NCBI RefSeq assembly: GCF_000331995.1
Contig: NC_020134.1
Coordinates: 1,091,465 to 1,155,464, forward strand
DNA: 64,000 nucleotides
Direction of reading: 5' to 3'
Source: Thermoclostridium stercorarium subsp. stercorarium DSM 8532
GTDB taxonomy: Bacteria > Bacillota > Clostridia > DSM-8532
The translations under genes were made by a program, and so were the position numbers. Of the stretch, positions 4,419 through 46,601 are shown piece by piece. Below the pieces are notes generated by a model that saw only the letters and a list, made by a program, of their open reading frames with translations, was not told the DNA's origin and did no database searches. Numbering within the stretch: position 1 is the stretch's first letter; every line of letters starts with the position of its first letter.

Positions 4419-5639
4419 ATGAACGGTAAAATACCGTTGCTTTTAATAACAGGATTATTGCTCATGGCCAGCGGATGTTCTGCAGGTACCGGAACGAAAG
4501 CCGAGAGGGTGGTTCCGGTAAAGGTCTACCGCGTTTCTGAACGGGAGAGGCAGGATATTTCTCAATACATTGGAACGGTACAGCCGGAGAAAACGGTAAG
4601 GCTTTCCTTTAAAACAGGCGGAAGAGTTGAAAGCATTAAAGTTAAAAAAGGAGATGCTGTTAAAAAAGGAGATGTTTTAATTTCCCTTGACAGGACCGAT
4701 CTGTTATACGCTGAAAACCTTGCAAAAGCTCAGCTGGAAATGGTGATGGCCCAGTATGAGAAGGCATCCAACGGTGCAACTGAAGAGGATATTGAACAGG
4801 CAAGACTTAACGTTGTAAAGGCCGAGGAGGCGTACAATTATGCCCTGGAGAGGTTCAGGGAAGCGGAGGAATTGTATCATAAAGGTACGGTAACAAAGCA
4901 GGCATATGAGCAGGCCGAACTAGAGGTTAAATTGAGAGAGGCTGACCTGAAGCTTGTAAGGGAAGTACAGGAACAGGTTCAGAAGGGAGCAAGGTATGAG
5001 GAAATAAAAGCGCTGTCAGCTCAGGTGGAAAGCGCGAAAACCGAGTATGATTACAGAAGAAATCAGTTAAACGAAGCAGTTCTGAAATCGCCTGTTGACG
5101 GAACGGTGTTGGAAATTTTATGTGAAGAAGGAGAAATGGCGGCTGCAGGTTATCCTGTGATTGTCCTTTATACCGGAGAAAAAATTGTCAGCGTAGGCGT
5201 GCCTGAAAGGGAACTGAAGAATATCAGGCCGGAAACTGAAGTATGGATTGAAAAAGATGGCAGGGCATTTGAAGCAAAAATTAAAAACATTGCCGTTTTA
5301 CCCGATTCCTCAACGGGCCTGTACAATATTGAAATTGAATGCGGCGAACCGGTGGATGAGCCTTTCGGCTCAACGGTTACTGTGAACTTTCTGGTGGGAA
5401 ACGTAAAAGGGTGTTTTGTGCCTCTTGCGGCAATTTTGAATGACGGAACGGACTATGTCCTGACCGTTTCAGGAGACAGAGCTGTGCGAAAAAACGTGAC
5501 GATTGAAGGAATATACAATTTTGAGGCTATGGTAACCGGCTTAAGTGACGGTGAGCTGCTGATTGTATCTGGCATAAACAGACTGAGTACGGGTGATCGG
5601 GTTACGGTGAAAGAGGTGGACTATGGCACGGATAATTGA
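4419..5639 (+). CDS. RND efflux adaptor lipoprotein (HlyD/AcrA family)
   Basis: This is the membrane-fusion subunit of a drug or lipid efflux pump, about 406 residues from the chosen ATG. That start has AGAGGTG upstream and gives a clean lipoprotein signal with lipobox A-S-G-C near residue 20. A longer frame back to 4347 lacks a ribosome site. A biotinyl-lipoyl hairpin (G-R-V-E-S-I-K-V-K-K-G-D) comes next, then a long coiled coil rich in Ala, Glu and Lys, then beta-barrel domains. The gene overlaps the RND pump gene by 17 bases. A Gram-positive cell has no outer-membrane channel, so the adaptor probably sits lipid-anchored on the outer face of the membrane. Confidence 0.88.
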   Translation: MNGKIPLLLITGLLLMASGCSAGTGTKAERVVPVKVYRVSERERQDISQYIGTVQPEKTVRLSFKTGGRVESIKVKKGDAVKKGDVLISLDRTDLLYAENLAKAQLEMVMAQYEKASNGATEEDIEQARLNVVKAEEAYNYALERFREAEELYHKGTVTKQAYEQAELEVKLREADLKLVREVQEQVQKGARYEEIKALSAQVESAKTEYDYRRNQLNEAVLKSPVDGTVLEILCEEGEMAAAGYPVIVLYTGEKIVSVGVPERELKNIRPETEVWIEKDGRAFEAKIKNIAVLPDSSTGLYNIEIECGEPVDEPFGSTVTVNFLVGNVKGCFVPLAAILNDGTDYVLTVSGDRAVRKNVTIEGIYNFEAMVTGLSDGELLIVSGINRLSTGDRVTVKEVDYGTDN

Positions 5640-8769: not shown

Positions 8770-9957
8770 TTAATTTATTTGAAAAGCAGAATTACGTATA
8801 TTTCCGTGAACATTCCTTATATCTGTGTTTTCAAACCTGATTACGGTATACGGCCATGTAATTACCTGAGTTACCAGCATTCCAGGTTCGGGGCTTTGAA
8901 CCGTCGCATAAATGTAAACATCACCGGTTTTGTTTTTTGCCACTCTGTCGATTGTTACCCTGTAACCGCCGGTATTCCTTTGTCCCGCAGCTACAAGGGC
9001 ATAGACAAAATTATCTTTGATCGTGTAATGAATTCCTGCCTGAGTGTATAACCGGCTTACCCATGCGGACAGTTCTTCATCGGATGCGACGGTGTCGGGT
9101 GTTACTATTTCAAAACCAATTTCTTCCGTGCTTTCCTCTGCGGAATTTTCTATAACTCCGTCCACAGTAAAATCGCCGTCAATCGCTATCAGTTTGCAGG
9201 GATATGTTATTACAGAGATAACACTTGAGTCGGGATTAGGTTCGTTTATTTTGGCAACCAAATAAACCTTTCCGGGATAAATAACGGTTGCGCTTTCGAT
9301 TTCCACCGAATATCCGCCTGTTGGTTTTTCCCCTGCACAAACCAGCACATAGGTTTTGTTGTCCAATGTTTTCTGGTAAATTCCCATATTGTCTCTGTTT
9401 TCCTGTACCCAGGAATAAAGCTCTTCGTTTTCAGACAACCCTAAAATATCTATTTCTTTATATTCCGCCGGCCTTTCAACGGGAACTGTTACCGTTTCGG
9501 TTTCGGCTTTGACCAGAACGGATTTGTTTGCGCCGTCCCATTCCACAACAGCACCAAGGCCTTCGGCTGCAAAACGCAGAGGCACATAAACTTTTCCGTC
9601 CTGTATAAACGGCTCCACGTCCATTTCAATTGATTCCATTATTCCTGCAGGCTGGTTCTTTCTTTGAACTGATGCGTTTTTTTCGCCGATGAAAAATTTA
9701 ACCGTTGAATTAGCTCCGTCAATTGTAATGGTTCCGGTTTCCCGGTCGAAAACCGTTACAACACCCAATTTATTAAAAAAATCGGAGTCGGTGGGTATCA
9801 TTATTCTTTGATTTTTAAATATGGGCGATGTTGTAAGTTCAATTCCTTCGCCGCTGACATCGATAAATACCGTTACATCCCGGTCCGCCTGAGCGGTTGA
9901 GGGAAATACCGACAGCAAAAGCATTAATGATAAAATCAGGATGTGAATTTTCTTCAT
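8770..9957 (-). CDS. Secreted copper-amine-oxidase-like stalk domain protein with two PrcB-type domains
   Basis: This is a predicted exported protein of 395 residues. The chosen ATG has AAAGGAG eight bases upstream and starts a standard signal peptide (M-K-K-I-H-I-L-I-L, cleavage after A-Q-A). Residues about 30-150 match the stalk domain named after copper amine oxidase (repeated I-x-V-P-L-R-F-A-A-E-G-L-G-A type segment). Two similar modules follow, each with T-G-G-Y-x-V-x-I and then V-I-T-[YW]-P, the PrcB C-terminal type, at about 200-275 and 305-385. In clostridia such proteins are surface or spore-associated. The function is unknown. It is a single gene ended by its own hairpin. Confidence 0.82.
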   Translation of the reverse strand: MKKIHILILSLMLLLSVFPSTAQADRDVTVFIDVSGEGIELTTSPIFKNQRIMIPTDSDFFNKLGVVTVFDRETGTITIDGANSTVKFFIGEKNASVQRKNQPAGIMESIEMDVEPFIQDGKVYVPLRFAAEGLGAVVEWDGANKSVLVKAETETVTVPVERPAEYKEIDILGLSENEELYSWVQENRDNMGIYQKTLDNKTYVLVCAGEKPTGGYSVEIESATVIYPGKVYLVAKINEPNPDSSVISVITYPCKLIAIDGDFTVDGVIENSAEESTEEIGFEIVTPDTVASDEELSAWVSRLYTQAGIHYTIKDNFVYALVAAGQRNTGGYRVTIDRVAKNKTGDVYIYATVQSPEPGMLVTQVITWPYTVIRFENTDIRNVHGNIRNSAFQIN

Positions 9958-10354: not shown

Positions 10355-12160
10355 ATGAAAAAGCTCAGGATTTTGAAGGATTTCATGAAAGGAAACCTGT
10401 TTAAGTATTTTGCAGCCGTTATATTTTCCGGCATAGCGGTTGTATTTTCAATTTTAAGTCCGATGGTAATCAGCTTTACCGTGGATTCGGTTATAGGTGA
10501 CGAACCCATGGACTTACCCGCTTGGCTTATGAAACTGGTTTCTGATTTTGGCGGAAGGGATGCCTTAAGAGGAAATATATGGGTTTTGGGGCTTCTGTTT
10601 GTTTTTCTTACATTGATGACAGGTGTTTTTCAGTATATAAAAAACCGCTGGTTTGCGGTAAGTACCGAAAATGCCACGAAAAATATCCGGGATGCGTTAT
10701 ATGATCATCTGCAACATATGGAATATTACGAACATGTCAGATCGCAGACCGGTGATCTCACCCAGAGGTGCACCGCGGACGTGGAAACCGTTCGGAAATT
10801 CATGGCAAACCAGGTTACACAGGTCGGTGAAATATTGTTTACAGTAGCCGTCACTCTTGTGGTAATGGTGCGCCTGAATGTCGAACTCACGTTGTACTCC
10901 CTTTGCGTAGTTCCTTTTATTTTCCTTGCTTCGGTGATATTTTTCACAAAGGTCAAAAAAACTTTTCTGGAAGTTGAGGAGGCAGACTCGGAACTGCATG
11001 CGACGCTTCAGGAGAATTTGACGGGGGTACGTGTCGTCAGGGCTTTCGGAAGGCAGGAATACGAAATTGAAAAATTTAACGGAAAGAATGAAAAGTACAG
11101 GGACAAAATACGGGAATTGAACGAACTTATGGCGTGGTACTGGTCAATGAGCGATTTGTTGTGCATGGCCCAGGCGATGCTTGTGCTGTTTATTTCGGTA
11201 AGCTGGGCAGCAAACGGCAGAATTACCCTTGGAACGGTTATTCTTTTCATAACATACATAAGAAACCTGATATGGCCGATACGCCAGCTAGGAAGAGTTA
11301 TTTCGGACATGGGTCAGGCCCTTGTGGCTTTCGGGAGAATTGTCGAAATACTTGAAAAACCGGCGGAGCCAAAATTCACTCAGGGGCTTACGCCTGAAAT
11401 TAAGGGGCATATAGTGTTTGAAAACGTAAGTTTCCGGTATCCTGACGGAACAAACCCCATTAGGGATATTTCCTTTGAAGTAAAGCCTGGGCAGACAGTG
11501 GGAATCCTGGGGCCTACCGGATGTGGAAAGTCTTCCCTGGTGCATCTGCTGGTGCGGCTTTTTGACTATCAGGAAGGTTCAATAAAGATTGACGGGTATG
11601 AATTAAAAGACATAGACAAGAAATGGCTGAGAAGCCACATAGGAATAGTGCTTCAGGAACCGTTCCTTTTTTCGAAAACGGTGCTTGAAAACATAAAGCT
11701 TGCAAAACCTGACGCAACTATGACCGAAGTGGAACATGCAGCCAGAATTGCTGCCATACATGACACAATAATGTCATTTGAAAAAGGATACAAAACCCTG
11801 GTCGGAGAACGAGGGGTAACCCTTTCGGGAGGTCAGGTCCAGCGTGTCGCAATAGCACGCACCGTTCTGAAAGAACACCCGATACTTATCTTTGATGATT
11901 CCCTCAGTGCGGTGGATATGGAAACCGATATCATGATCCGCCGGGCATTGAAGGAACGGGCAAAGGGTGTAACCACATTTATAATTTCTCACAGAATAAA
12001 CACTCTGGCTGAGGCCGATTTTATAGTGGTTATGGATAAAGGCAGGATTGTTCAGATGGGCACCCATGAGGAACTTATACGCCAGGAAGGCCTGTATTCG
12101 CGTATTTGGGCCATTCAGAGCGCTCTCGGGGAAGGGTTGGAGGTGAACGGAAATGAGTAA
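10355..12160 (+). CDS. Heterodimeric ABC exporter subunit with degenerate catalytic site
   Basis: This is a half-transporter of 601 residues with six membrane helices (residues 1-320) and an ATPase domain. Walker A is G-P-T-G-C-G-K-S near 386, the signature is L-S-G-G-Q, and Walker B is I-L-I-F-D-D. The catalytic glutamate after Walker B is replaced by Asp, as in the TM287-type subunit of bacterial heterodimeric exporters. The neighbouring gene supplies the second half, so one ATP site hydrolyses and the other only binds. Lipids or drugs are the usual substrates. The start follows GGGGAGG. The reading frame overlaps the next gene by 8 bases. Confidence 0.92.
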   Translation: MKKLRILKDFMKGNLFKYFAAVIFSGIAVVFSILSPMVISFTVDSVIGDEPMDLPAWLMKLVSDFGGRDALRGNIWVLGLLFVFLTLMTGVFQYIKNRWFAVSTENATKNIRDALYDHLQHMEYYEHVRSQTGDLTQRCTADVETVRKFMANQVTQVGEILFTVAVTLVVMVRLNVELTLYSLCVVPFIFLASVIFFTKVKKTFLEVEEADSELHATLQENLTGVRVVRAFGRQEYEIEKFNGKNEKYRDKIRELNELMAWYWSMSDLLCMAQAMLVLFISVSWAANGRITLGTVILFITYIRNLIWPIRQLGRVISDMGQALVAFGRIVEILEKPAEPKFTQGLTPEIKGHIVFENVSFRYPDGTNPIRDISFEVKPGQTVGILGPTGCGKSSLVHLLVRLFDYQEGSIKIDGYELKDIDKKWLRSHIGIVLQEPFLFSKTVLENIKLAKPDATMTEVEHAARIAAIHDTIMSFEKGYKTLVGERGVTLSGGQVQRVAIARTVLKEHPILIFDDSLSAVDMETDIMIRRALKERAKGVTTFIISHRINTLAEADFIVVMDKGRIVQMGTHEELIRQEGLYSRIWAIQSALGEGLEVNGNE

Positions 12161-24066: not shown

Positions 24067-26466
24067 TTATTGTTCGGTTTCAAGAAAAGATTTTTGTTTT
24101 CTGAAACTGTTCGGCGTGTATCCGTATCTGGCCTTAAACTGCTGTATGAAATACGCGGGAGTGTTGAAACCCACTTCATGGGCTATTTGCTGTATTGTCA
24201 GGTCACTGTTGAGGAGAAGGTCCATGGCCAGTTCAAATTTAAGTTCCTTAACATATGTAACGAAATTAACCCCGGTATTTTCCTTGAATAATTTGCTTAA
24301 ATAAGCGGGACTGATATTGATATGCTCCGCCACTTCATCAAGGGAAATGTCTTTTTTTATATTGTTATAAATATACCGTTTTGCTTTATTTATAAGAATT
24401 GCATTCTGGCTTTCAGCCCTTTCATTCAGACCGTTAATCACGCTTCTTGCCAGTTCAACAATCCAGTCACAGAATTCATTTACATTGTTAATGTTTTTAA
24501 ACACCGCATAAATATCTTTTTTCTCAATATCCTTGAACTGGTATTTCATGTCCCGTATGTACCGTGAAACGATATTTACGAATTCAAACATTACCTGGTT
24601 CAAATGGTCAGCGGAATAGCCGCCTTTACTACACAGACTTCTGAATTTGTCCATCAGTTCCTTTATCCTGTTGATATTTTGAAGCTTAAGACTTTCCTGA
24701 AACTTCATGATTAAACCCGGCGGTATATGTTCCTGACAGTTTTCCCTTTCCAGAGTGTCCGCATGAAGCAGCGGAACATGGGGATAGAAAAATCTGTACT
24801 TAAGCAGTGTTTTGGTATCATTGAACGAATTGTGAACATTAAGTATGTTATCCACCCATCGGCCCAATGCGGCGGTTATTGTGACATAAAAACTGTTATA
24901 GGCATATGATGATAAATTTGAAACAATTTTACCTATTTCCTTCTCATCCGTCGTAGTTGCGCCGACAATAACGCCAATCCGGAAATCAGGCAAATCCACC
25001 GCAATGAATTTAAGACTGTCATTGCTGTTTTTTTCTGTTTCATCAATTAGGTTGTATTTCAGGAAATGCATGTTTTCAACGCTGAGATAGGATATATCCC
25101 TCAGTGATTCTATTTCAATTGTCATTGCGGCATAATACGGAAAGTCCATGTCGATGTTTATCAGTCTGAATTTCTCCCTTGCTTCGTTGACATTTATAAT
25201 CTGATTATGCAAAAGCCCCATAATCAGGTTGTATTTTATTATCGGAATATTGTTTTTTAAAGTTTTCGTCAAATCGTCGATGGTTAAATATAAATTGTCA
25301 ATCGCGTTGTCAATGATTTTAAATTCATTGGCTTTATGCTGAATGCCGGTGTTTATAACAAGCTGCCTGCTTCTTTTGTTTCCGGCGTTTACATTACCGA
25401 TGAGTGATCTGATTTTATCAAGCAGCAGTTTCAGGGGGTTATACAGATTTTTTGTTATCAGCGAGGCGATGACCGTACCGATGATTATTGACATGAGGCA
25501 CAGAATAACAAGCATTCGGGTCAGCGACGCGGTTTTTTCATAAAACTGCGACAGAGGAGTTATGTTGATTAATATCCAGCCGGTGTCGGGAAAACTTGTA
25601 TACGATATCATGCTCTTTACGCCGTTAACTTCATCCACCGTGCTGCCGTAAAGCATGCGTGAATCAAGTATATGCTCAATGTATTTCTGATCGTTCAGGC
25701 ATTCATTCAGCATGTCTTTTTCGGGATGGGAAATTATTTCGCCGGTACCGCTGATTATAAACGTATTCGTGTATTCCGACGGTGCGCTCATTTTTATTAA
25801 ATCGCTGAATATGCTTTCATTTATGTCAATGGCTATGAATCCATCACTGTTTATTCCCGTTGAAATGACAGGGTATGATCGTACATATGTGAGCAGATTA
25901 ATCTTCAGGCTGGTATCGGGGCGTTCGAGGTTTAGCGGAACCTTCCTCGTTTCAAGCCATATATGGCTTGTGTTTTTACCCGACATTTCGTTTATCCAGT
26001 CCTGATTCATGTAATACGGCCAGTTGGTTTCGTTTAGATATTTAACACCCAATGAGGACGAGATCAGTATTTTCTGTTTTTTATAATAAATGTGGATATT
26101 GGAAATAACGGTGGAATTGTTGGACACTATTTTTTTTAAATAGTTATACGTCTGGAGTATTTTTGTATGGTTGCCCGAGACGTCATCGTGAAAACCGAAC
26201 AGGTCGTTTGTATTGCTTATAAATTCATGAACCAAAATCATGTAATTGCTTTCAACCGTTTCAATAATTTTCGTATTCAGTGTGTTTTTTACCTGTTCAA
26301 GCATTTTTAAATGGACATTTTCCACCGCTTCATTATAACTTGCGGTAAAATAAAAATAAAAAGTTCCTCCCAATACCAGCGTGATAAAAAGGACTATGAT
26401 TATATACGAAAGGATCATTTTGTTAAAAATGGAGTCCAAATTGGGAAATCGGTTGAAAATTTTCAT
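24067..26466 (-). CDS. Membrane-bound AraC family regulator with extracellular sensor
   Basis: This is a 799-residue one-component transmembrane regulator. A helix at about residues 14-36 and a second near 300-325 bracket an extracellular Cache-like sensor domain. A cytoplasmic linker and a degenerate middle domain follow. The last 100 residues are an AraC HTH pair (D-I-S-L-D-E-V-A-E-H-I-N-I-S and T-I-Q-Q-I-A-H-E-V-G-F-N-T-P-A-Y-F-I-Q-Q-F-K). Such proteins sit divergent from LplB/YtcP importers and activate them when oligosaccharide is sensed. Exactly that arrangement is seen here, with the importer starting at 26731. The start follows GGGAGT. The best divergent promoter is at 26535. Confidence 0.88.
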   Translation of the reverse strand: MKIFNRFPNLDSIFNKMILSYIIIVLFITLVLGGTFYFYFTASYNEAVENVHLKMLEQVKNTLNTKIIETVESNYMILVHEFISNTNDLFGFHDDVSGNHTKILQTYNYLKKIVSNNSTVISNIHIYYKKQKILISSSLGVKYLNETNWPYYMNQDWINEMSGKNTSHIWLETRKVPLNLERPDTSLKINLLTYVRSYPVISTGINSDGFIAIDINESIFSDLIKMSAPSEYTNTFIISGTGEIISHPEKDMLNECLNDQKYIEHILDSRMLYGSTVDEVNGVKSMISYTSFPDTGWILINITPLSQFYEKTASLTRMLVILCLMSIIIGTVIASLITKNLYNPLKLLLDKIRSLIGNVNAGNKRSRQLVINTGIQHKANEFKIIDNAIDNLYLTIDDLTKTLKNNIPIIKYNLIMGLLHNQIINVNEAREKFRLINIDMDFPYYAAMTIEIESLRDISYLSVENMHFLKYNLIDETEKNSNDSLKFIAVDLPDFRIGVIVGATTTDEKEIGKIVSNLSSYAYNSFYVTITAALGRWVDNILNVHNSFNDTKTLLKYRFFYPHVPLLHADTLERENCQEHIPPGLIMKFQESLKLQNINRIKELMDKFRSLCSKGGYSADHLNQVMFEFVNIVSRYIRDMKYQFKDIEKKDIYAVFKNINNVNEFCDWIVELARSVINGLNERAESQNAILINKAKRYIYNNIKKDISLDEVAEHINISPAYLSKLFKENTGVNFVTYVKELKFELAMDLLLNSDLTIQQIAHEVGFNTPAYFIQQFKARYGYTPNSFRKQKSFLETEQ

Positions 26467-26730: not shown

Positions 26731-27675
26731 TTGAAAACTAAAACAAATTCATCTGTCGCAGAAAACCGTTTTATCAGAACACTATACCAATACTGGAAAT
26801 ACAGGTATCTGGTTATATTGTTTCTGCCGGGCATCATATATTTTATAATTTTTAAATATCTGCCAATTTATGGTCTTGTGCTTGCATTTAAAGACTACAG
26901 ATTCCTTGACGGTATCATGGGGAGTCCCTGGGTAGGTCTGAAACATTTCCGTGAGATGTTTGCACTGCAAAGCTTCTGGGAGGTTTTCAGAAATACCGTA
27001 ATAATAAGTTTTTATAATCTGATTTTCGGTTTTCCCGCCCCGATAATATTTGCGCTGTTGCTGAACGAGATAGGAAACACCCATTATAAAAAAATTGTCC
27101 AGACCATAAGTTATCTTCCTCATTTTGTGTCGTGGGTAATTCTGGGTGGGCTGTTTATGCAGTTCCTTTCACCCTCCATAGGCCCGATAAACATTTTGAT
27201 TAAATCGCTTGGAGGCACACCGATTTATTTCCTGGCAGATCCCAAATGGTTCAGGGCAGTTTTGGTGGTAACCGAAATGTGGAAATCGTTAGGGTGGGGA
27301 TCTATTGTTTATCTTGCTGCAATAAGCGGAATAGACCCGAGTTTGTATGAATCGGCGTCTATTGACGGGGCCGGAAGATGGCAGAAAGTAATACATATAA
27401 CACTGCCGTCAATGACTCCGGTTATAACAATCATGCTGATACTTAATGTCGGCAAACTGGTAAACGACAATTTCGATCAGATCTTCAACCTTTATAATCC
27501 TGCGGTTTATAAAGTCGCTGATGTTATCAGCACGTATACTTACAGAATGGGTCTTGAAAATATGAGATACAGTTTTTCCACGGCAGTTGGGCTTTTTAGA
27601 AATGTGATATCCTTTACGCTTCTGGTTATTGCCAATCAGATAAGCAAAAGGATAAATGATTACGGTATTTGGTAG
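26731..27675 (+). CDS. ABC sugar permease, LplB type
   Basis: This is the first membrane subunit of a carbohydrate uptake ABC importer, 314 residues, six helices. It has the LplB opening (L-F-L-P-G-I-I-Y-F-I-I-F-K-Y-L-P-I-Y-G) and the ATPase-contact loop (Y-E-S-A-S-I-D-G-A-G-R-W-Q-K). The start is a TTG behind TTAGGAGTGATTATAA. It overlaps the second permease region and is followed by a lipoprotein binding protein. No ATPase gene is present, so a shared MsmX-type ATPase elsewhere is expected. The likely cargo is a pectin-derived oligosaccharide, judged from the GH105 genes downstream. Confidence 0.9.
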   Translation: MKTKTNSSVAENRFIRTLYQYWKYRYLVILFLPGIIYFIIFKYLPIYGLVLAFKDYRFLDGIMGSPWVGLKHFREMFALQSFWEVFRNTVIISFYNLIFGFPAPIIFALLLNEIGNTHYKKIVQTISYLPHFVSWVILGGLFMQFLSPSIGPINILIKSLGGTPIYFLADPKWFRAVLVVTEMWKSLGWGSIVYLAAISGIDPSLYESASIDGAGRWQKVIHITLPSMTPVITIMLILNVGKLVNDNFDQIFNLYNPAVYKVADVISTYTYRMGLENMRYSFSTAVGLFRNVISFTLLVIANQISKRINDYGIW

Positions 27676-27692
27676 AAAAGAGGCGATTAAAG

Positions 27693-28577
27693 TTGGCTGT
27701 TAGAAAAGCTTCAAAGGGAGAAAAAACATTTGACGTTTTTAATTACACTTTCATGTTCCTGCTGTGCGTAACAACCATATATCCTTTTCTGTACCTGTTT
27801 TCAAACTCGCTTGCTTCAACTGAAATAGCTCAGACGCAGATAACTATTATCCCTAAAAGCGTAACGTTTGAAAATTATAAAAGGGTGCTTACAAATCCGT
27901 TAATTGCAGCAGGGTATTATAATACAATTTTAAGGACCGTGCTGGGGACTTTTCTGAGCCTCATAACAACTTTTGCACTGGCTTATCCGTTATCAAAAAG
28001 ATATTTTCCCAACAGAAATTTCTGGACAGGAATTATTGTGTTTACGATGTTTTTCGGCGGCGGGATGATTCCAACATACATACTGGTACGCAATCTGAAC
28101 CTCATGAACACAATATGGGCACTTATACTGCCTGAACTGGTTAGCGCATATAATTTCGTTATTGTAAGAAATTACATGATGTCGCTTCCTGAAAGTATAG
28201 AAGAGTCGGCCAGAATTGACGGTGCAAACGACATAATTATATTAATCCGCATTGTGTTGCCTGTCTGCAAACCCATACTTGCAACTGTTGCCCTGTGGAT
28301 TGCCGTGTGGCACTGGAACAGCTGGTTTGACAGTATGATTTATTCGCAAAAGGCCGAAAAGCAGGTTGTGCAGCTTATTATGCGAAGAATTGTTCTGGAA
28401 GGTTCGCAGCAGGTGATGAATATGTCAACAATGGATGAGAGCGGTATGAGGGTTGTTACCCCAGAAAGCTTGAAAGCTGCAACGGTAATGGTAACTACAA
28501 TTCCAATACTGATGGTATATCCGTTTATCCAGAAGTATTTTGTAAAGGGCGTTATGCTCGGATCGCTGAAAGGATAG
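27693..28577 (+). CDS. ABC sugar permease, YtcP/AraQ type
   Basis: This is the second permease of the importer, 294 residues from the TTG at 27693, which has AAGAGGCG upstream. The frame is open back to 27669, but that TTG has no ribosome site. Six helices, E-E-S-A-R-I-D-G-A-N-D (the EAA loop) near 180, and a C-terminal F-V-K-G-V-M-L-G-S-L-K-G tail are typical of YtcP. It works with the LplB-type permease directly upstream. Confidence 0.9.
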   Translation: MAVRKASKGEKTFDVFNYTFMFLLCVTTIYPFLYLFSNSLASTEIAQTQITIIPKSVTFENYKRVLTNPLIAAGYYNTILRTVLGTFLSLITTFALAYPLSKRYFPNRNFWTGIIVFTMFFGGGMIPTYILVRNLNLMNTIWALILPELVSAYNFVIVRNYMMSLPESIEESARIDGANDIIILIRIVLPVCKPILATVALWIAVWHWNSWFDSMIYSQKAEKQVVQLIMRRIVLEGSQQVMNMSTMDESGMRVVTPESLKAATVMVTTIPILMVYPFIQKYFVKGVMLGSLKG

Positions 28578-28594
28578 CAGTATTTTGTTATTTT

Positions 28595-28617
28595 CAGACG
28601 GTTTTTAGAACTGTCTG
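28595..28617 (+). other. Hairpin between permease and binding-protein genes
   Basis: A 9-base-pair stem (28595-28603 with 28609-28617) lacks a T run. It could stabilise the downstream lipoprotein message, which is usually needed in excess over the permeases. Confidence 0.5.
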
Positions 28618-28655
28618 TAAAATATATAATAATTGAAGGGGAGGAAGTGGACCGT

Positions 28656-30380
28656 ATGAAAAAAAGTAAAGCTCTGCTGATTTTGGTTTTACTCATCAGC
28701 CTGATTATGACGACGGTTGTCGGTTGCGGACAGGCAAAGGTATCACAAAACGACGGGCAGAAAGCAGACAACAGTGGGCAACAACAGGGACAGGCAAAAG
28801 AGCCGGACGATCCTTATGCACCCGAAGAAGGGAAAAAGTACAGGATTTCATGGACCAACTATCAGATTCAGCCTGCCGAAGAGGGCGCAATTATTTTAAA
28901 AATGCTGGAAGAGAAATTCAATGTTGAAATTGATCTTTGGAACATGGAACATTCAAGGTATCATGAACTGCTGAACTTAAGGCTTGCGTCGGGCGAAATA
29001 CCTGACGTGTTCCGTATGACCGATCCCAACACCCTGTTGACATACGCAGAACAGGGAGTTCTGGCCGAACTGCCCGAGGACTTTTTGCGGAAATATGCCC
29101 CTGACATATTAAAGGTAATAGAGGAAAATGCACCCGGTTATATGGATTTCGGAAAAGTCAACGGCGTTCAGTACGCAATACCAGCGATAAATCCTACAAA
29201 CATCTTCAGACTGCCTCTTGTTTATCGCCTTGACTGGATGGAAAATGTGGGTGTTACCAAAACCCCCGAGACTCTGGAAGAGTTTGAAGAACTGATGTAT
29301 AAATTTGCAAAAGAAGATCCCGACAGAAACGGAAAAGACGACACATATGGCTGTTCACAGACGGTATTGTATCCCGTGCTCGGCGCTTTTGGACTGGTCA
29401 TCGATTTTGGCGGCAGCTCATTTTTTGTGGAAAGAGACGGAAAACTCATAGACAGCGCCGTGGCTCCTGAACTGAAGGATGCTCTTGCCATTCTGGCAAA
29501 ATGGTACAAGGACGGAGTTCTTGATCCCGAGTTTATTACCGGTGAAAATTACGGCGGTTACTGGGCTTTGTCTCATGCATTCATCAACGGAAGGATTGGT
29601 TATTCAAGTTTGGGTAACTATTATCACTGGCTTCCCGAAGGGGCATACATGATTCCCACTGAAGACGGTACCGAAATACCAAGCAGCGATGAAGCAAATG
29701 CGAGAGAAATAAAACTCGTTAATCCGAACGCAAAATGGATACAGGGAATGCCGCTTTTGGGCCCAACAGGCCAGAGAGGCATAAAGGCCTATAACAGACT
29801 GATGAATTTCTACGGTATCGGAAAACTTGCTGAAAAAGATAAAGGAAAAATGGGCAAAATTATGGAAATTTTCAATTACGTAAGCGCAACACCCGACCTG
29901 GATGAAAGAACGACTTACAGATGGGGAATAAAAGGCGTTCATTGGGACTGGATAAACAAGGAAATGGAGACAATAAAGATACTTCCTCCGTATGATACCG
30001 AATCGGGTTATGAGAACAGAATCGGTGCCAACCTGGGTATGACGCTTCCGTATCCGCCTAAGGCGCCAAGAGAACAGTGGGCTTATGAACACGGACTTGA
30101 TAAGTATGCTATAGAATCACCCATTCAGATTGGATTACCTAAAGCAATGCAATATAGTGCAGAGCTGATCAAAATAAGGGATGAAGCCATTGTTGCGATA
30201 ATTACGGGCGACAAGCCGCTGGATTATTTTGAGGAATATGTGCAGATTTACATGGCTGCAGGCGGTAAGGAAGTAGAAGATGAAGCAAACGAATACTACA
30301 AATCAATAAAGATTAACCGGTATATGACCCCTATTTTTGCCGTGTCATTTAAAGAAATAAATGGACTGGTGGCTGTTTAA
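28656..30380 (+). CDS. Extracellular oligosaccharide-binding lipoprotein, LplA type
   Basis: This is the solute-binding protein of the importer, 574 residues, within the usual LplA size. The signal peptide M-K-K-S-K-A-L-L-I-L ends in a V-V-G-C lipobox near residue 24, and a short Gln-rich linker follows. The body has the N-terminal E-x-G-K-K-Y-R-I-S-W strand and many aromatic residues expected for sugar stacking. The ATG at 28656 is chosen because GGGGAGG lies 11 bases upstream; an in-frame GTG at 28647 is too close. A terminator stem overlaps its stop codon. Confidence 0.9.
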   Translation: MKKSKALLILVLLISLIMTTVVGCGQAKVSQNDGQKADNSGQQQGQAKEPDDPYAPEEGKKYRISWTNYQIQPAEEGAIILKMLEEKFNVEIDLWNMEHSRYHELLNLRLASGEIPDVFRMTDPNTLLTYAEQGVLAELPEDFLRKYAPDILKVIEENAPGYMDFGKVNGVQYAIPAINPTNIFRLPLVYRLDWMENVGVTKTPETLEEFEELMYKFAKEDPDRNGKDDTYGCSQTVLYPVLGAFGLVIDFGGSSFFVERDGKLIDSAVAPELKDALAILAKWYKDGVLDPEFITGENYGGYWALSHAFINGRIGYSSLGNYYHWLPEGAYMIPTEDGTEIPSSDEANAREIKLVNPNAKWIQGMPLLGPTGQRGIKAYNRLMNFYGIGKLAEKDKGKMGKIMEIFNYVSATPDLDERTTYRWGIKGVHWDWINKEMETIKILPPYDTESGYENRIGANLGMTLPYPPKAPREQWAYEHGLDKYAIESPIQIGLPKAMQYSAELIKIRDEAIVAIITGDKPLDYFEEYVQIYMAAGGKEVEDEANEYYKSIKINRYMTPIFAVSFKEINGLVAV

Positions 30381-41473: not shown

Positions 41474-41630
41474 ACATTCAGGATATTTAGCAAATTTCAT
41501 AAAACAATCAGTTCCTGTTTTACTGTTTAGGGTTGAGTGATATTTTACAATGTCAGTATGCTATAACAAAATTAGTTGAACTTACAAATAAAATTTAACT
41601 TAAAATTTAATAAATTTATGGGGTGGACAA

Positions 41631-42974
41631 ATGGAAAGAATCAAAATATCAGAAAACGGCAGATATCTGATGTATGAAAGTGGAAAACCTTTTTTCTGGC
41701 TTGGGGACACGGCCTGGCTGCTATTTCAGAAACTGAGCGCCGATGAAGCGCAGGAATACATAAATGACAGACGGGATAAAGGTTTTAACGTAATTCAGGC
41801 GGTGCTGATACATGATGTAACCGATACAAACGTGTACGGCAAACCGGCTCTGGATGATGACAGCATAACGAAGACATTCATAAACAACAGTCCCGATTTG
41901 GAAAGCCCAAACAGCTACTGGAAGCATGTCGACAGGGTTGTGGACATGGCTGAAAAAGCCGGCATGTATATGGGATTGCTTCCCGTCTGGGGCAGCATTG
42001 TAAAGGCGGGATACTTAAACAGAGATAATGTTGTGGAATATGGAACATGGCTTGCGGAACATTTCAAGGACAGAAAAAACATTATCTGGATTTTGGGCGG
42101 AGATATTAAAGGCAATGAGCACTATGAAATATGGGACACGCTGGGAAACACCATAAAAGCCCATAACCCTGATGCTTTAATGACATTTCATCCCTTTGGA
42201 AGGACGCAGTCGTCCGAATGGTTTCATAATGCGCCGTGGCTTGATTTTAACATGTTTCAGTCGGGACACAGGCGGTATAATCAGAAAATGAAACAGGAAG
42301 AGGAAGATGATGACAGAATAAGGATAGGTCAGGATAACTGGCGGTATGTAATGAATGATTATCAAAAAACGCCCGTTAAGCCCACTTTGGATGGTGAGCC
42401 CGCATATGAAAGCATTCCTCAGGGGTTGCATGATCCGACGCAGCCGTACTGGGACGCAAACGACGTTCGCAGGTATGCATACTGGTCGGTTTTTGCAGGG
42501 GCATGCGGGCATACTTACGGGCATAACGCGGTAATGCAGATGCACAGGCCATGTGACTTAAGGGGCTCATTTGGTGTGCGCGAATACTGGTACGACGCAT
42601 TAAAAGCCGAAGGGGCACGGCAGATGCATTATTTAAAGGATCTGATGCTTTCTGTTCCGTATTTTGAAAGAATTCCTGATCAGTCGGTAATTGACGGGGA
42701 TATAGGAGAAAAATATGATCGACTGCTGGCCACAAGGGGGGCAAGTTACATATTCGTTTATACCTATACCGGGCGGAGCATTAGCGTGAGGATGGGAAAG
42801 ATATCGGGCGAAAAGGTGATTGCAAGGTGGTTTGATCCAAAAACAGGAGAAATGTTTAAAATAGGAGAGTTTGAAAATAGCGGGGTGCGGGAATTTGAAC
42901 CTCCCAGAAAAGAAGGGGAATGGCCTGATTATGTTCTGATACTTACAGACAGCAGAAAAGAGTATTTTTTATGA
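41631..42974 (+). CDS. Apiosidase-like glycoside hydrolase, GH140 (DUF4038)
   Basis: This is a 447-residue TIM-barrel hydrolase of the DUF4038 family, which includes the GH140 D-apiosidase of rhamnogalacturonan II breakdown. The opening reads G-K-P-F-F-W-L-G-D-T-A-W, the candidate acid/base is in I-W-I-L-G-G-D near residue 158, and the candidate nucleophile is in L-D-G-E-P-A-Y-E near 255. The C-terminal 90 residues form the small beta domain usual in this family. There is no signal peptide. It is preceded by a consensus promoter, and the same region encodes an isomerase, kinase and split transketolase suited to apiose. Non-apiose activities exist in DUF4038, so specificity rests partly on context. 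Confidence 0.83.
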   Translation: MERIKISENGRYLMYESGKPFFWLGDTAWLLFQKLSADEAQEYINDRRDKGFNVIQAVLIHDVTDTNVYGKPALDDDSITKTFINNSPDLESPNSYWKHVDRVVDMAEKAGMYMGLLPVWGSIVKAGYLNRDNVVEYGTWLAEHFKDRKNIIWILGGDIKGNEHYEIWDTLGNTIKAHNPDALMTFHPFGRTQSSEWFHNAPWLDFNMFQSGHRRYNQKMKQEEEDDDRIRIGQDNWRYVMNDYQKTPVKPTLDGEPAYESIPQGLHDPTQPYWDANDVRRYAYWSVFAGACGHTYGHNAVMQMHRPCDLRGSFGVREYWYDALKAEGARQMHYLKDLMLSVPYFERIPDQSVIDGDIGEKYDRLLATRGASYIFVYTYTGRSISVRMGKISGEKVIARWFDPKTGEMFKIGEFENSGVREFEPPRKEGEWPDYVLILTDSRKEYFL

Positions 42975-43008
42975 ATATTCCACTCTGAAATATGGGAAGA
43001 GTTGTACA

Positions 43009-44740
43009 ATGAAAAAAAAAAAGGTTTTTTAACAAAAAAGGTTTTTTTCAGATTCCTGTTCCAGTTTGTTATTTTTTTACTGCTCCCGGTTATTTTTGCA
43101 TTAAACCTTTTCTTAACTTCTGCACAACTGGCAAAACAGAGCTGTATTGATTCAAGTCTTATCTCCCTGAGGCATGTCAGGGATGAGTTTGACAATTACA
43201 TTAATGCGTTGGACCAGATAGCAACCCAGCTGATGTTTGAACCCAAGCTCAATAAGGTAGCGACAATTAGAAAACCTCAGTATGGAAGCCGTCAGGTGTA
43301 TTATATACAGGAATTCGGGGAAGAGCTTAAGGCTAAAATGAGCCCATCCGCACAGGTGGATACCAATTTCGTGCTTTTGCTGAAAAATGCTTCAGCGGCA
43401 TATTACAGGGATAATGTTGTATTTGATCTCGAGTTTTATTATGATAAATTTTTAAATTATCATGATTATACATACCAGGAATGGCTCGACATTGTTTTCG
43501 GAAACAGCCATCCGTTTTTTATTCCCGAAAGCCGGGTACTTTATGAAGGAGTAAATATATCCGCAATGACATATGTTTTCCCAATTGTGACCGGTTATGG
43601 CGGAAAAGAAGGCTTTGCTTTTTATAATAAAAAGCACGAAGATTGAGGAACTTTGCAAAGAGAACGATGAAAAAATAAGCCGCAATATTTTCATAACGGA
43701 TTCTGATGGAAATATTCTGTTTGGAATATCTGGTTCAGTGGTTGATTATGATCTTTTTGATGTTGTATCCGGAATTGACGGCGGGGAGAATGAAGGTTTT
43801 TATTTTGATACCGTTGATAACGGGAAGTATATGATTGTGTATGCCCGATCGCGATATAATGACCTGATATTTACCGAAATTATCCCGCAGTCTGTTGCCA
43901 TGAGCAAAGTTAACAATATAAAACAAATGACGTGCTATATGGTGGCGCTATATTTTCTTATCGGTATAGTCAGTGCCGTGTCTTTCGCCAAACGCAACAG
44001 TGAGCCGTTTAATGAACTGGCGGGAAAATTAAAGCCTTTTTTGCAGAAACTGAACGGTATGCCTGATGAAAAAACAAATTCAGATGAACTTGAATACATA
44101 AGAAACGGTGTTGATTATTTAAAAAATACGGTACAGCAAACATATTACGAGCTGAAGGATATCTTTTTGGAACGACTTTTTAACGGCAGTTTTAATAATC
44201 TTGAAGATTTAAAGCAGGCAGGCGAAAAACTGAATTTAAGTATGGATGGTTCTTTTTACTGCGTTGCCGTAATGGAACTTCTTTTTTCAGAAACATGGGA
44301 AGAAAATATAAAGAGAAAAGCAGTTCAAAATATATATGAAGAAATTAGCCGGAGTTTGCCCGATTTTGTTCTCGGTGTAAACTTAAGGAAGTTCAGAATA
44401 AATTTTCTGTTTACGCTTCAGTCAAATAATAAAGAGTCGATGGATAACATAATGAACTTTGTGCTTAAAGTCAAATCATCAATACAGCGGGACGGGAGAG
44501 TTAACGCTGCATGCGGAATCGGACTTGTGGTTCCGAGTTTGACTGATGTTCAGTTCTCATATGAACAGGCAATCTTTACGCTGAACAATGTGGCAAAAAA
44601 ATCCTTAAAAATTATACAGTATGGTGATTTGCCTGATTCAACCCTTGAGAATATTTTCTACTATCCTATTGAAATGGAGCATAAGCTGATCAATTCCACC
44701 AAAGCTGTCGCCGAACTGTCACAGATTTATTTCTATAACG
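43009..44740 (+). pseudogene. Membrane AraC-type regulator remnant, two frameshifts and loss of the HTH end
   Basis: An ATG at 43009 follows GGGAAGAG. It is cut off at once by a run of 11 A (43012-43022), and one more A would put it in frame with M-K-K-K-K-G-F-L-T-K-K. That frame encodes a membrane helix and Cache-like sensor up to about 43618. A T5 run (43619-43623) then shifts the frame by one; with T4 the protein continues G-F-A-F-I-I-K-S-T-K. The next 370 residues hold the second helix and the degenerate middle domain of transmembrane AraC regulators. Around residue E-H-K-L-I-N-S-T-K the similarity stops and the AraC DNA-binding domain is absent. The ORF instead runs into the downstream permease. 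Confidence 0.8.
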
Positions 44741-44754
44741 GGGAGGGCCGTGTT

Positions 44755-45690
44755 TTGAAAACCGAACACACAGTAGCAAGGAAAAATGCTTATCATTTAA
44801 AAAGGGGAATAATCAGGCACTGGCAGTTATATTTGCTGGCAATACCGCCGGTTGCATATTTGATTATTTTTAAATATGTTCCGTTGTTTGGATCAATAAT
44901 AGCCTTTAAAGATTATAACTTTGCAAAAGGAATTCTCGGAAGCAATTGGGTCGGAACCAAGCATTTTGTTAAATTTTTCAGGTCCCCGCAGTTTAAAACC
45001 CTGATGGTTAATACGATAGGGCTTTCCTTATACCAGATAGTTGCGGGAATCTTGCCGCCCATCCTTCTGGCGGTTGCATTGAATTATGCCCGAAACAGGA
45101 TATTTAAAAAAACCGTTCAGATGGTAACGTATATGCCCTATTTTATATCAACGGTTTTGATTGTGGGAATTCTGTCCCAGCTTCTTTCACTGAATGGCCT
45201 TGTAAATCAGGTTATTAAGGCGATGGGATTAAATCCAGTTCATTTCATGGGTGAACCCAAACTGTTCAGGACCATTTATGTATTTTCGGGAATTTGGCAA
45301 AACAACGGTTATAACGCTGTAATCTATCTGGCAGCATTGGCATCAATAAGCCCTGAATTGTATGAAGCAGCTATAATTGACGGTGCTTCCATCTGGAAAA
45401 GAATATACTATATTGATATTCCGAGTATATTGCCTACAGCGGTCATACTGCTTATTCTTGCATGCGGAAGGGTTTTGTCGATAGGTTATGAAAAGGTTTT
45501 GCTGATGCAGAATAATATGAATATGCAGACTTCGGACATTATTTCAACATATGTGTACAGGGTAGGGCTGGTTTCGATGCAATACAGTTATTCCACCGCA
45601 ATTGGTTTGTTTCAGTCTGTTGTTTCATTTATACTTCTTGTTCTGGTTAACAGGGTATCAAGAAAGATAAATGAAACAAGTTTATGGTAA
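44755..45690 (+). CDS. ABC sugar permease, LplB type (reading frame fused to upstream regulator remnant)
   Basis: This is the first membrane subunit of a second oligosaccharide importer, 311 residues from TTG 44755. A clear ribosome site (GGGGAGGG at 44740-44747) and the start TTG-AAA-AC match the first LplB gene's start (TTG-AAA-AC at 26731), so this is the native start. The ORF is nevertheless open upstream to 43597 through the regulator remnant, apparently because a deletion joined them. The body has six helices and Y-E-A-A-I-I-D-G-A-S-I-W. No binding protein gene is found in this importer unit. Confidence 0.85.
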   Translation: MKTEHTVARKNAYHLKRGIIRHWQLYLLAIPPVAYLIIFKYVPLFGSIIAFKDYNFAKGILGSNWVGTKHFVKFFRSPQFKTLMVNTIGLSLYQIVAGILPPILLAVALNYARNRIFKKTVQMVTYMPYFISTVLIVGILSQLLSLNGLVNQVIKAMGLNPVHFMGEPKLFRTIYVFSGIWQNNGYNAVIYLAALASISPELYEAAIIDGASIWKRIYYIDIPSILPTAVILLILACGRVLSIGYEKVLLMQNNMNMQTSDIISTYVYRVGLVSMQYSYSTAIGLFQSVVSFILLVLVNRVSRKINETSLW

Positions 45691-45701
45691 GGGTGAAGAT
45701 A

Positions 45702-46601
45702 ATGGAAAAGGGAAAAACAAAAGATTCTGTATCTGATAAAGTTTTTTATGTTGTAAATGGCTTATTTCTGTTTTTTTGCCTGGTTGTCGTTGCTTTGCCG
45801 CTGATAAACGTTATAAGTCAGTCGTTCAGTTCACCGCAGGCAGTTATTGCCGGCAGAGTGTATTTGTGGCCTGTTGATTTTAACGTAAATGCGTATAAAC
45901 GTATTTTCACGACCAAATTACTGATGATTGGGTACAGAAATTCATTCCTTTATACTTTTGTTGGAACGCTGATTAATATAGTGATGACCGTGGCAATTGC
46001 ATATCCTCTTTCCCGTAAGGACTTTGTCGGACGAAACATTATCACGGGGTTGTTTGTTTTTACAATGATTTTTAGTGCTCCGTTGATTCCCACTTATCTG
46101 ACAATTAAAAACCTTGGATTGCTTGATACTTTCTGGGTGATGGTATTACCGGGGGCAATTTCGGTTTACAATATGATTATTGCCCGCACTTTTTTCCAGA
46201 GTACAATTCCGGCAGAACTGTTCGAAGCTGCGGAACTGGACGGGGCAAGCGATATCAGGGTGTTAACGTCGGTAATTTTGCCTTTGTCCAAACCGATTTT
46301 GGCGGTTCTGGTATTGTATTATGCCGTGGGGCATTGGAATTCGTATTTTGACGGGATGATTTATCTTAATACCGAGACAAAATTCCCGTTACAGGTTGTG
46401 TTGCGTAATATTCTGGCAAGTGTTGAAACGATTGAGCAGATGGTCAGCAGTATAGATATTGCAGATGCGCAGAAACTTGCTTATATTGAGGTAATGAAAT
46501 ACGCCATTATCGTTTTCGGAAGCATTCCGGTGATTATACTGTATCCGTTTGTGCAGAAATATTTTGTAAAAGGCGTTATGATCGGTTCGGTAAAAGGATG
46601 A
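45702..46601 (+). CDS. ABC sugar permease, YtcP/AraQ type
   Basis: This is the second permease of the importer, 299 residues, six helices, EAA loop F-E-A-A-E-L-D-G-A-S-D near 180, and the F-V-K-G-V-M-I-G-S-V-K-G tail. The start at 45702 has AAGGGTGAAG upstream. An in-frame ATG at 45684 overlaps the end of the upstream gene and lacks a ribosome site. The matching solute-binding lipoprotein is missing nearby. Confidence 0.87.
   Translation: MEKGKTKDSVSDKVFYVVNGLFLFFCLVVVALPLINVISQSFSSPQAVIAGRVYLWPVDFNVNAYKRIFTTKLLMIGYRNSFLYTFVGTLINIVMTVAIAYPLSRKDFVGRNIITGLFVFTMIFSAPLIPTYLTIKNLGLLDTFWVMVLPGAISVYNMIIARTFFQSTIPAELFEAAELDGASDIRVLTSVILPLSKPILAVLVLYYAVGHWNSYFDGMIYLNTETKFPLQVVLRNILASVETIEQMVSSIDIADAQKLAYIEVMKYAIIVFGSIPVIILYPFVQKYFVKGVMIGSVKG

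Follow-up and report, generated by a model that had tools for sequence, protein, structure and literature searches.

A regulator remnant in frame with an importer permease in Thermoclostridium stercorarium is probably a recent deletion scar

In the genome of Thermoclostridium stercorarium subsp. stercorarium DSM 8532 (2.97 Mb in a single contig, 100% complete), one reading frame is open for 697 codons and passes from the middle of a membrane-bound AraC-type regulator into an LplB-type permease. Does this frame encode a new protein, or is it what a deletion left behind? A preliminary description of the DNA left the choice between chimera and scar open. The evidence assembled here, from a stretch of 64,000 nucleotides of contig NC_020134.1 (hereafter the window; about 43% G+C), favours the scar: the locus is very probably the trace of a recent deletion in a plant-polysaccharide uptake operon, with a dead regulator fragment reading by chance into LplB. 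It is an ordinary decaying operon rather than a new fusion protein.

The shared frame at 43597-45690 is as first described, and its domain matches agree with it (Pfam GGDEF_2 at residues 202-329, E 7e-7; BPD_transp_1 at residues 490-691). The wider interval 43009-45690, initially taken as one fused unit, is not a single open frame because two frameshifts cut the regulator; it is closed at 43030 and again at 43644. The regulator and its neighbours were compared with two loci, L029 (JAAYNA010000107.1, genome G002 of the same genus; also found as L044) and L045 (JAAYRE010000195.1). The features of the window are as follows.

41631..42974, forward strand: apiosidase-like glycoside hydrolase, intact (Pfam Apiosidase, E 2.3e-119), the left anchor of the colinear block
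43009..43032, forward strand: native regulator start, an ATG after GGGAAGAG, encoding MKKKKVF (7 codons) and then TAA at 43030-43032
between about 43012 and 43044, forward strand: first frameshift, in A/T runs
43023..43646, forward strand: N-terminal regulator remnant in frame 0, covering TM helix 1 and the greater part of the extracellular sensor, ending at TGA 43644-43646
43597..43608, forward strand: second frameshift, where homology to L029 leaves frame 0 and continues in that of the 697-codon ORF
43606..44706, forward strand: second part of the regulator remnant, with the rest of the sensor, the second TM helix, a linker and the GGDEF-like domain, ending after INSTKA
44705..44708, forward strand: left deletion boundary; L029 coordinates 8518 to about 11150-11222 are missing
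44707..44740, forward strand: 34-base join segment with no confident counterpart, in which ACTGTCACAGATT matches L029 at about 11155 in 12 of 13 bases
44741..45690, forward strand: LplB-type permease (BPD_transp_1), 311 aa, intact, with a GGGAGGG ribosome site and TTG 44755
45684..46601, forward strand: YtcP/UgpE-like second permease (Pfam BPD_transp_1), intact

The ancestral arrangement is seen in the relatives. In L029, the order is apiosidase, an intact AraC regulator of 768 aa, a binding-protein (SBP) gene, a hairpin, LplB and YtcP, and L045 shares this order as far as its contig reaches, to a point within LplB. The SBP is 577-578 aa long and matches Pfam SBP_bac_1 in both; in L029 its ORF is listed from 9275, with the start more likely at about 9359, behind AAGGAGG. 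Regulator and LplB are separate genes in both loci, and two relatives with intact, separate genes indicate that the arrangement in the window is the derived state. The window and L029 are colinear at 75-79% DNA identity over 41617-44705 and again from 44806 (from 44741 by a sensitive search); their apiosidases are 80% identical.

Alignment with the relatives, the check proposed in the preliminary description, mapped the left endpoint of the deletion near 44707 and the right endpoint to about 70 bases, with L029 as a stand-in for the window's own ancestor. Homology breaks off at window 44705 (L029 8517) and picks up again at window 44741 (L029 11256), so that about 2.63-2.7 kb are missing relative to L029 and the join is placed near 44707, some 48 bases 5' of the LplB TTG at 44755. 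The 34-base join segment is probably leftover SBP-LplB intergenic sequence; a search for its source found no exact match of at least 8 bases. The regulator has lost its last ~203 codons (from codon ~565), HTH included, and also lost are the regulator-SBP intergenic region, the entire SBP gene and the hairpin between SBP and LplB. The initial proposal that a deletion joined two genes therefore stands as to the deletion, which the two intact relatives bear out, but not as to the partners: these were not neighbours, since the SBP gene lay between them. Judged from the relatives, that reading overlooked the loss of the whole SBP gene together with its putative upstream control region. Elsewhere in the window's genome there is no SBP orthologue, the best match being at 33% in the neighbouring importer at 1086683. 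Two BPD_transp_1 permease genes of a CUT1 operon are thus present (44755-45690 and 45684-46601) and the cognate SBP gene is absent.

The regulator remnant is broken in addition to being truncated. GGGAAGAG sits at a normal distance from ATG 43009, and the regulator N-terminus aligns with L029 MRDRKVFITKRIFF; the 5' part of the regulator, when read in the frame of this ATG, contains 13 stops. The frame that does hold the N-terminal remnant spans 43002-43646 and is 77% identical to the L029 regulator up to about 43604, and the second part of the remnant is 64% identical. That the regulator is of AraC type and lacks its DNA-binding end, as first noted, is borne out by Pfam: a search of the window found no HTH in the remnant, whereas both intact orthologues have HTH_18 at residues ~682-763. 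The remnant thus has neither the C-terminal HTH_18 nor the intact reading frame of an AraC-family protein. The divergent regulator at 24067, initially offered as a picture of the full protein, is not the best template because it is a less closely related paralogue, with dCache_1 and HTH but no GGDEF_2 match. This regulator (24067-26466) is full-length with its frame intact here and fits Clst_0991/0992, for which a frame break due to a 454 homopolymer error was reported and later put right by RNA-seq.

Both permeases are preserved, LplB being 82% (from the same TTG) and YtcP 83% identical to their L029 counterparts. LplB retains its own TTG and ribosome site at 44755, as had been noticed: GGGAGGG lies just 5', the TTG corresponds to the same residue as the L029 TTG (11270), the position of the ribosome site is conserved, and L045 likewise has a TTG behind GGAGG. 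Since the fused ORF lacks a functional start, translation of LplB most likely begins at 44755.

The damage appears to be young. Against L029, dN/dS is 0.08 for LplB, 0.07 for YtcP, and 0.10 and 0.13 for the two parts of the regulator, which between the two intact relatives give 0.10 and 0.14; these ratios are rough, as dS is near saturation. Because the remnant's values are near those of intact relatives, it was evidently constrained for most of its history and broken recently. Lineage-specific amino-acid changes (window versus L029) number 52 versus 22 in the remnant and 36 versus 17 in the apiosidase, with no significant excess in the remnant (Fisher p 0.85), which suggests a decay too recent to be seen. 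Second-position changes number 43 versus 11 in the GGDEF part and 22 versus 8 in the apiosidase, somewhat raised by counts alone.

The DNA lost from the window carries two putative control elements in the relatives. A paired direct repeat, TTNNACGGT, with 33 bp spacing, lies 5' of the SBP gene in L029 (9189-9230; TTGCACGGT at 9189 and TTTCACGGT at 9222) and in L045 (4511-4552; TTGTACGGT at 4511 and TTGCACGGT at 4544). The pair occurs once in G002 and is absent throughout the window's genome. It is the probable operator of the AraC regulator, its arrangement being that expected for the AraC family, and, conserved in relatives, it makes a testable candidate. The hairpin between SBP and LplB (L029 11160-11196, L045 6469-6514; -27.9 and -23.3 kcal/mol, z -7.1 and -5.3), which is missing in the window, has no clear U-tract and is likely an mRNA stabiliser or attenuator.

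These comparisons point to the following course. The ancestor carried the apiosidase, the membrane AraC regulator (sensor, TM, GGDEF-like domain, HTH), the importer promoter/operator, SBP, LplB and YtcP. About 2.63-2.7 kb, from regulator codon ~565 to just 5' of the LplB ribosome site, was then lost; comparison with the relatives shows the loss of the HTH end, the probable operator, SBP and the hairpin, and that they went as a single event is our inference. Two small frameshifts, present in this assembly, additionally break the regulator fragment. The remnant-permease ORF is incidental, having no ribosome site and being cut off from the native start, and LplB and YtcP, if made, would presumably each be translated from its own start on transcripts that read through from upstream. 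Without its SBP, the importer probably does not work, unless it is served by a different CUT1 binding protein.

The strongest competing explanation, though an improbable one, is a true chimera: the frameshifts would be errors or tolerated, and a protein of ~890 residues (sensor, TM, GGDEF, LplB) would be translated from ATG 43009, linking a sugar sensor directly to a permease. ATG 43009 and LplB are indeed in phase, as the two indels cancel, and the first frameshift lies in A/T homopolymer runs, where the frameshifts, known from the assembly alone, could be assembly errors; 454 homopolymer errors, the matching type, have been reported for the C. stercorarium genome. However, RNA-seq was used to correct the DSM 8532 genome, with an independent genome as a cross-check; this repaired an error at Clst_0992 (the 24067 regulator, by the same gene count as used below), and the list of corrections has none between 1116366 and 1201128, the interval containing the fused locus. 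This lends weak support to the frameshifts being real. For the same strain there is an independent genome, CP004044, obtained with 454 plus Illumina (PMC3593316). When deletions were simulated between the regulator and the SBP-LplB spacer, an open fusion was left in only 1% (L029 as template) to 7% (L045), a slight indication that the frame could matter; it is uncommon yet unremarkable because the locus was picked for having such a frame. The same fusion in relatives would have meant a genuine fusion protein; none was found among the LplB matches listed for 60 relatives, where no open frame exceeds 393 aa, compared with 699 in the window. LplB's retention of its own TTG and ribosome site also speaks against the chimera. 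A deletion scar is favoured because, with the two frameshifts, the fused frame has no start that could be used. That they are erroneous or bypassed and that a sugar-sensing receptor domain, covalently joined to the permease, gates or assembles the transporter is more doubtful still.

The published annotation bears on the same choice. Gene order and count match Table 2 of PMC4102724: Clst_0993-0995 (M-M-S) correspond to window 26731-30380, and eleven genes later come Clst_1007-1008, from which we infer that these two are the window's permease pair. In that table they are two separate permeases (M-M) with no S gene and 0/0 peptides, contrary to what a chimera would lead one to expect. It is similarly improbable, a shade more so than the chimera, that the join arose in assembly and that the organism has the genes intact: the first frameshift lies in homopolymer runs and the join is known from the assembly, not from reads, but the assembly is a single, complete contig with no SBP orthologue elsewhere, and the published annotation lacks an S gene at the same place. 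A 697-aa protein from 43597, made through internal initiation or through reinitiation close to the stop at 43646, is very unlikely: the frame is open and its ATG lies 47 bases ahead of the stop closing the upstream frame, but no ribosome site was found in the sequence 5' of this ATG and the product would begin within the extracellular sensor, lacking the first TM helix.

As a deletion scar, the locus resembles LplABC/YtcQP-type CUT1 importers that have a membrane AraC regulator next to them, in that it has two BPD_transp_1 permeases, a gene for a sensor/GGDEF-like AraC regulator and glycoside hydrolases. Its relatives, like those systems, also have SBP_bac_1, whereas the window has no SBP gene, and its regulator has no HTH and carries two frameshifts. 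It is also like the pseudogenes and gene-join scars that deletions generate in bacteria—a truncated, frameshifted remnant in frame with the next gene, broken recently—and differs from them in nothing notable except that several linked functions were lost together. The locus illustrates how, in one deletion, a regulator can lose its DNA-binding end and probable operator, and the importer that it targets its ligand-binding component, and how the permease frames left over are still called a transporter by automatic annotation. Clst_1007-1008, listed as a carbohydrate importer, is best regarded as a pair that is probably dead or orphaned. Three more permease pairs in the same table (PMC4102724 Table 2) that lack a gene for a binding protein, Clst_0472-0473, Clst_0673-0674 and Clst_1566-1567, may be similar orphans.
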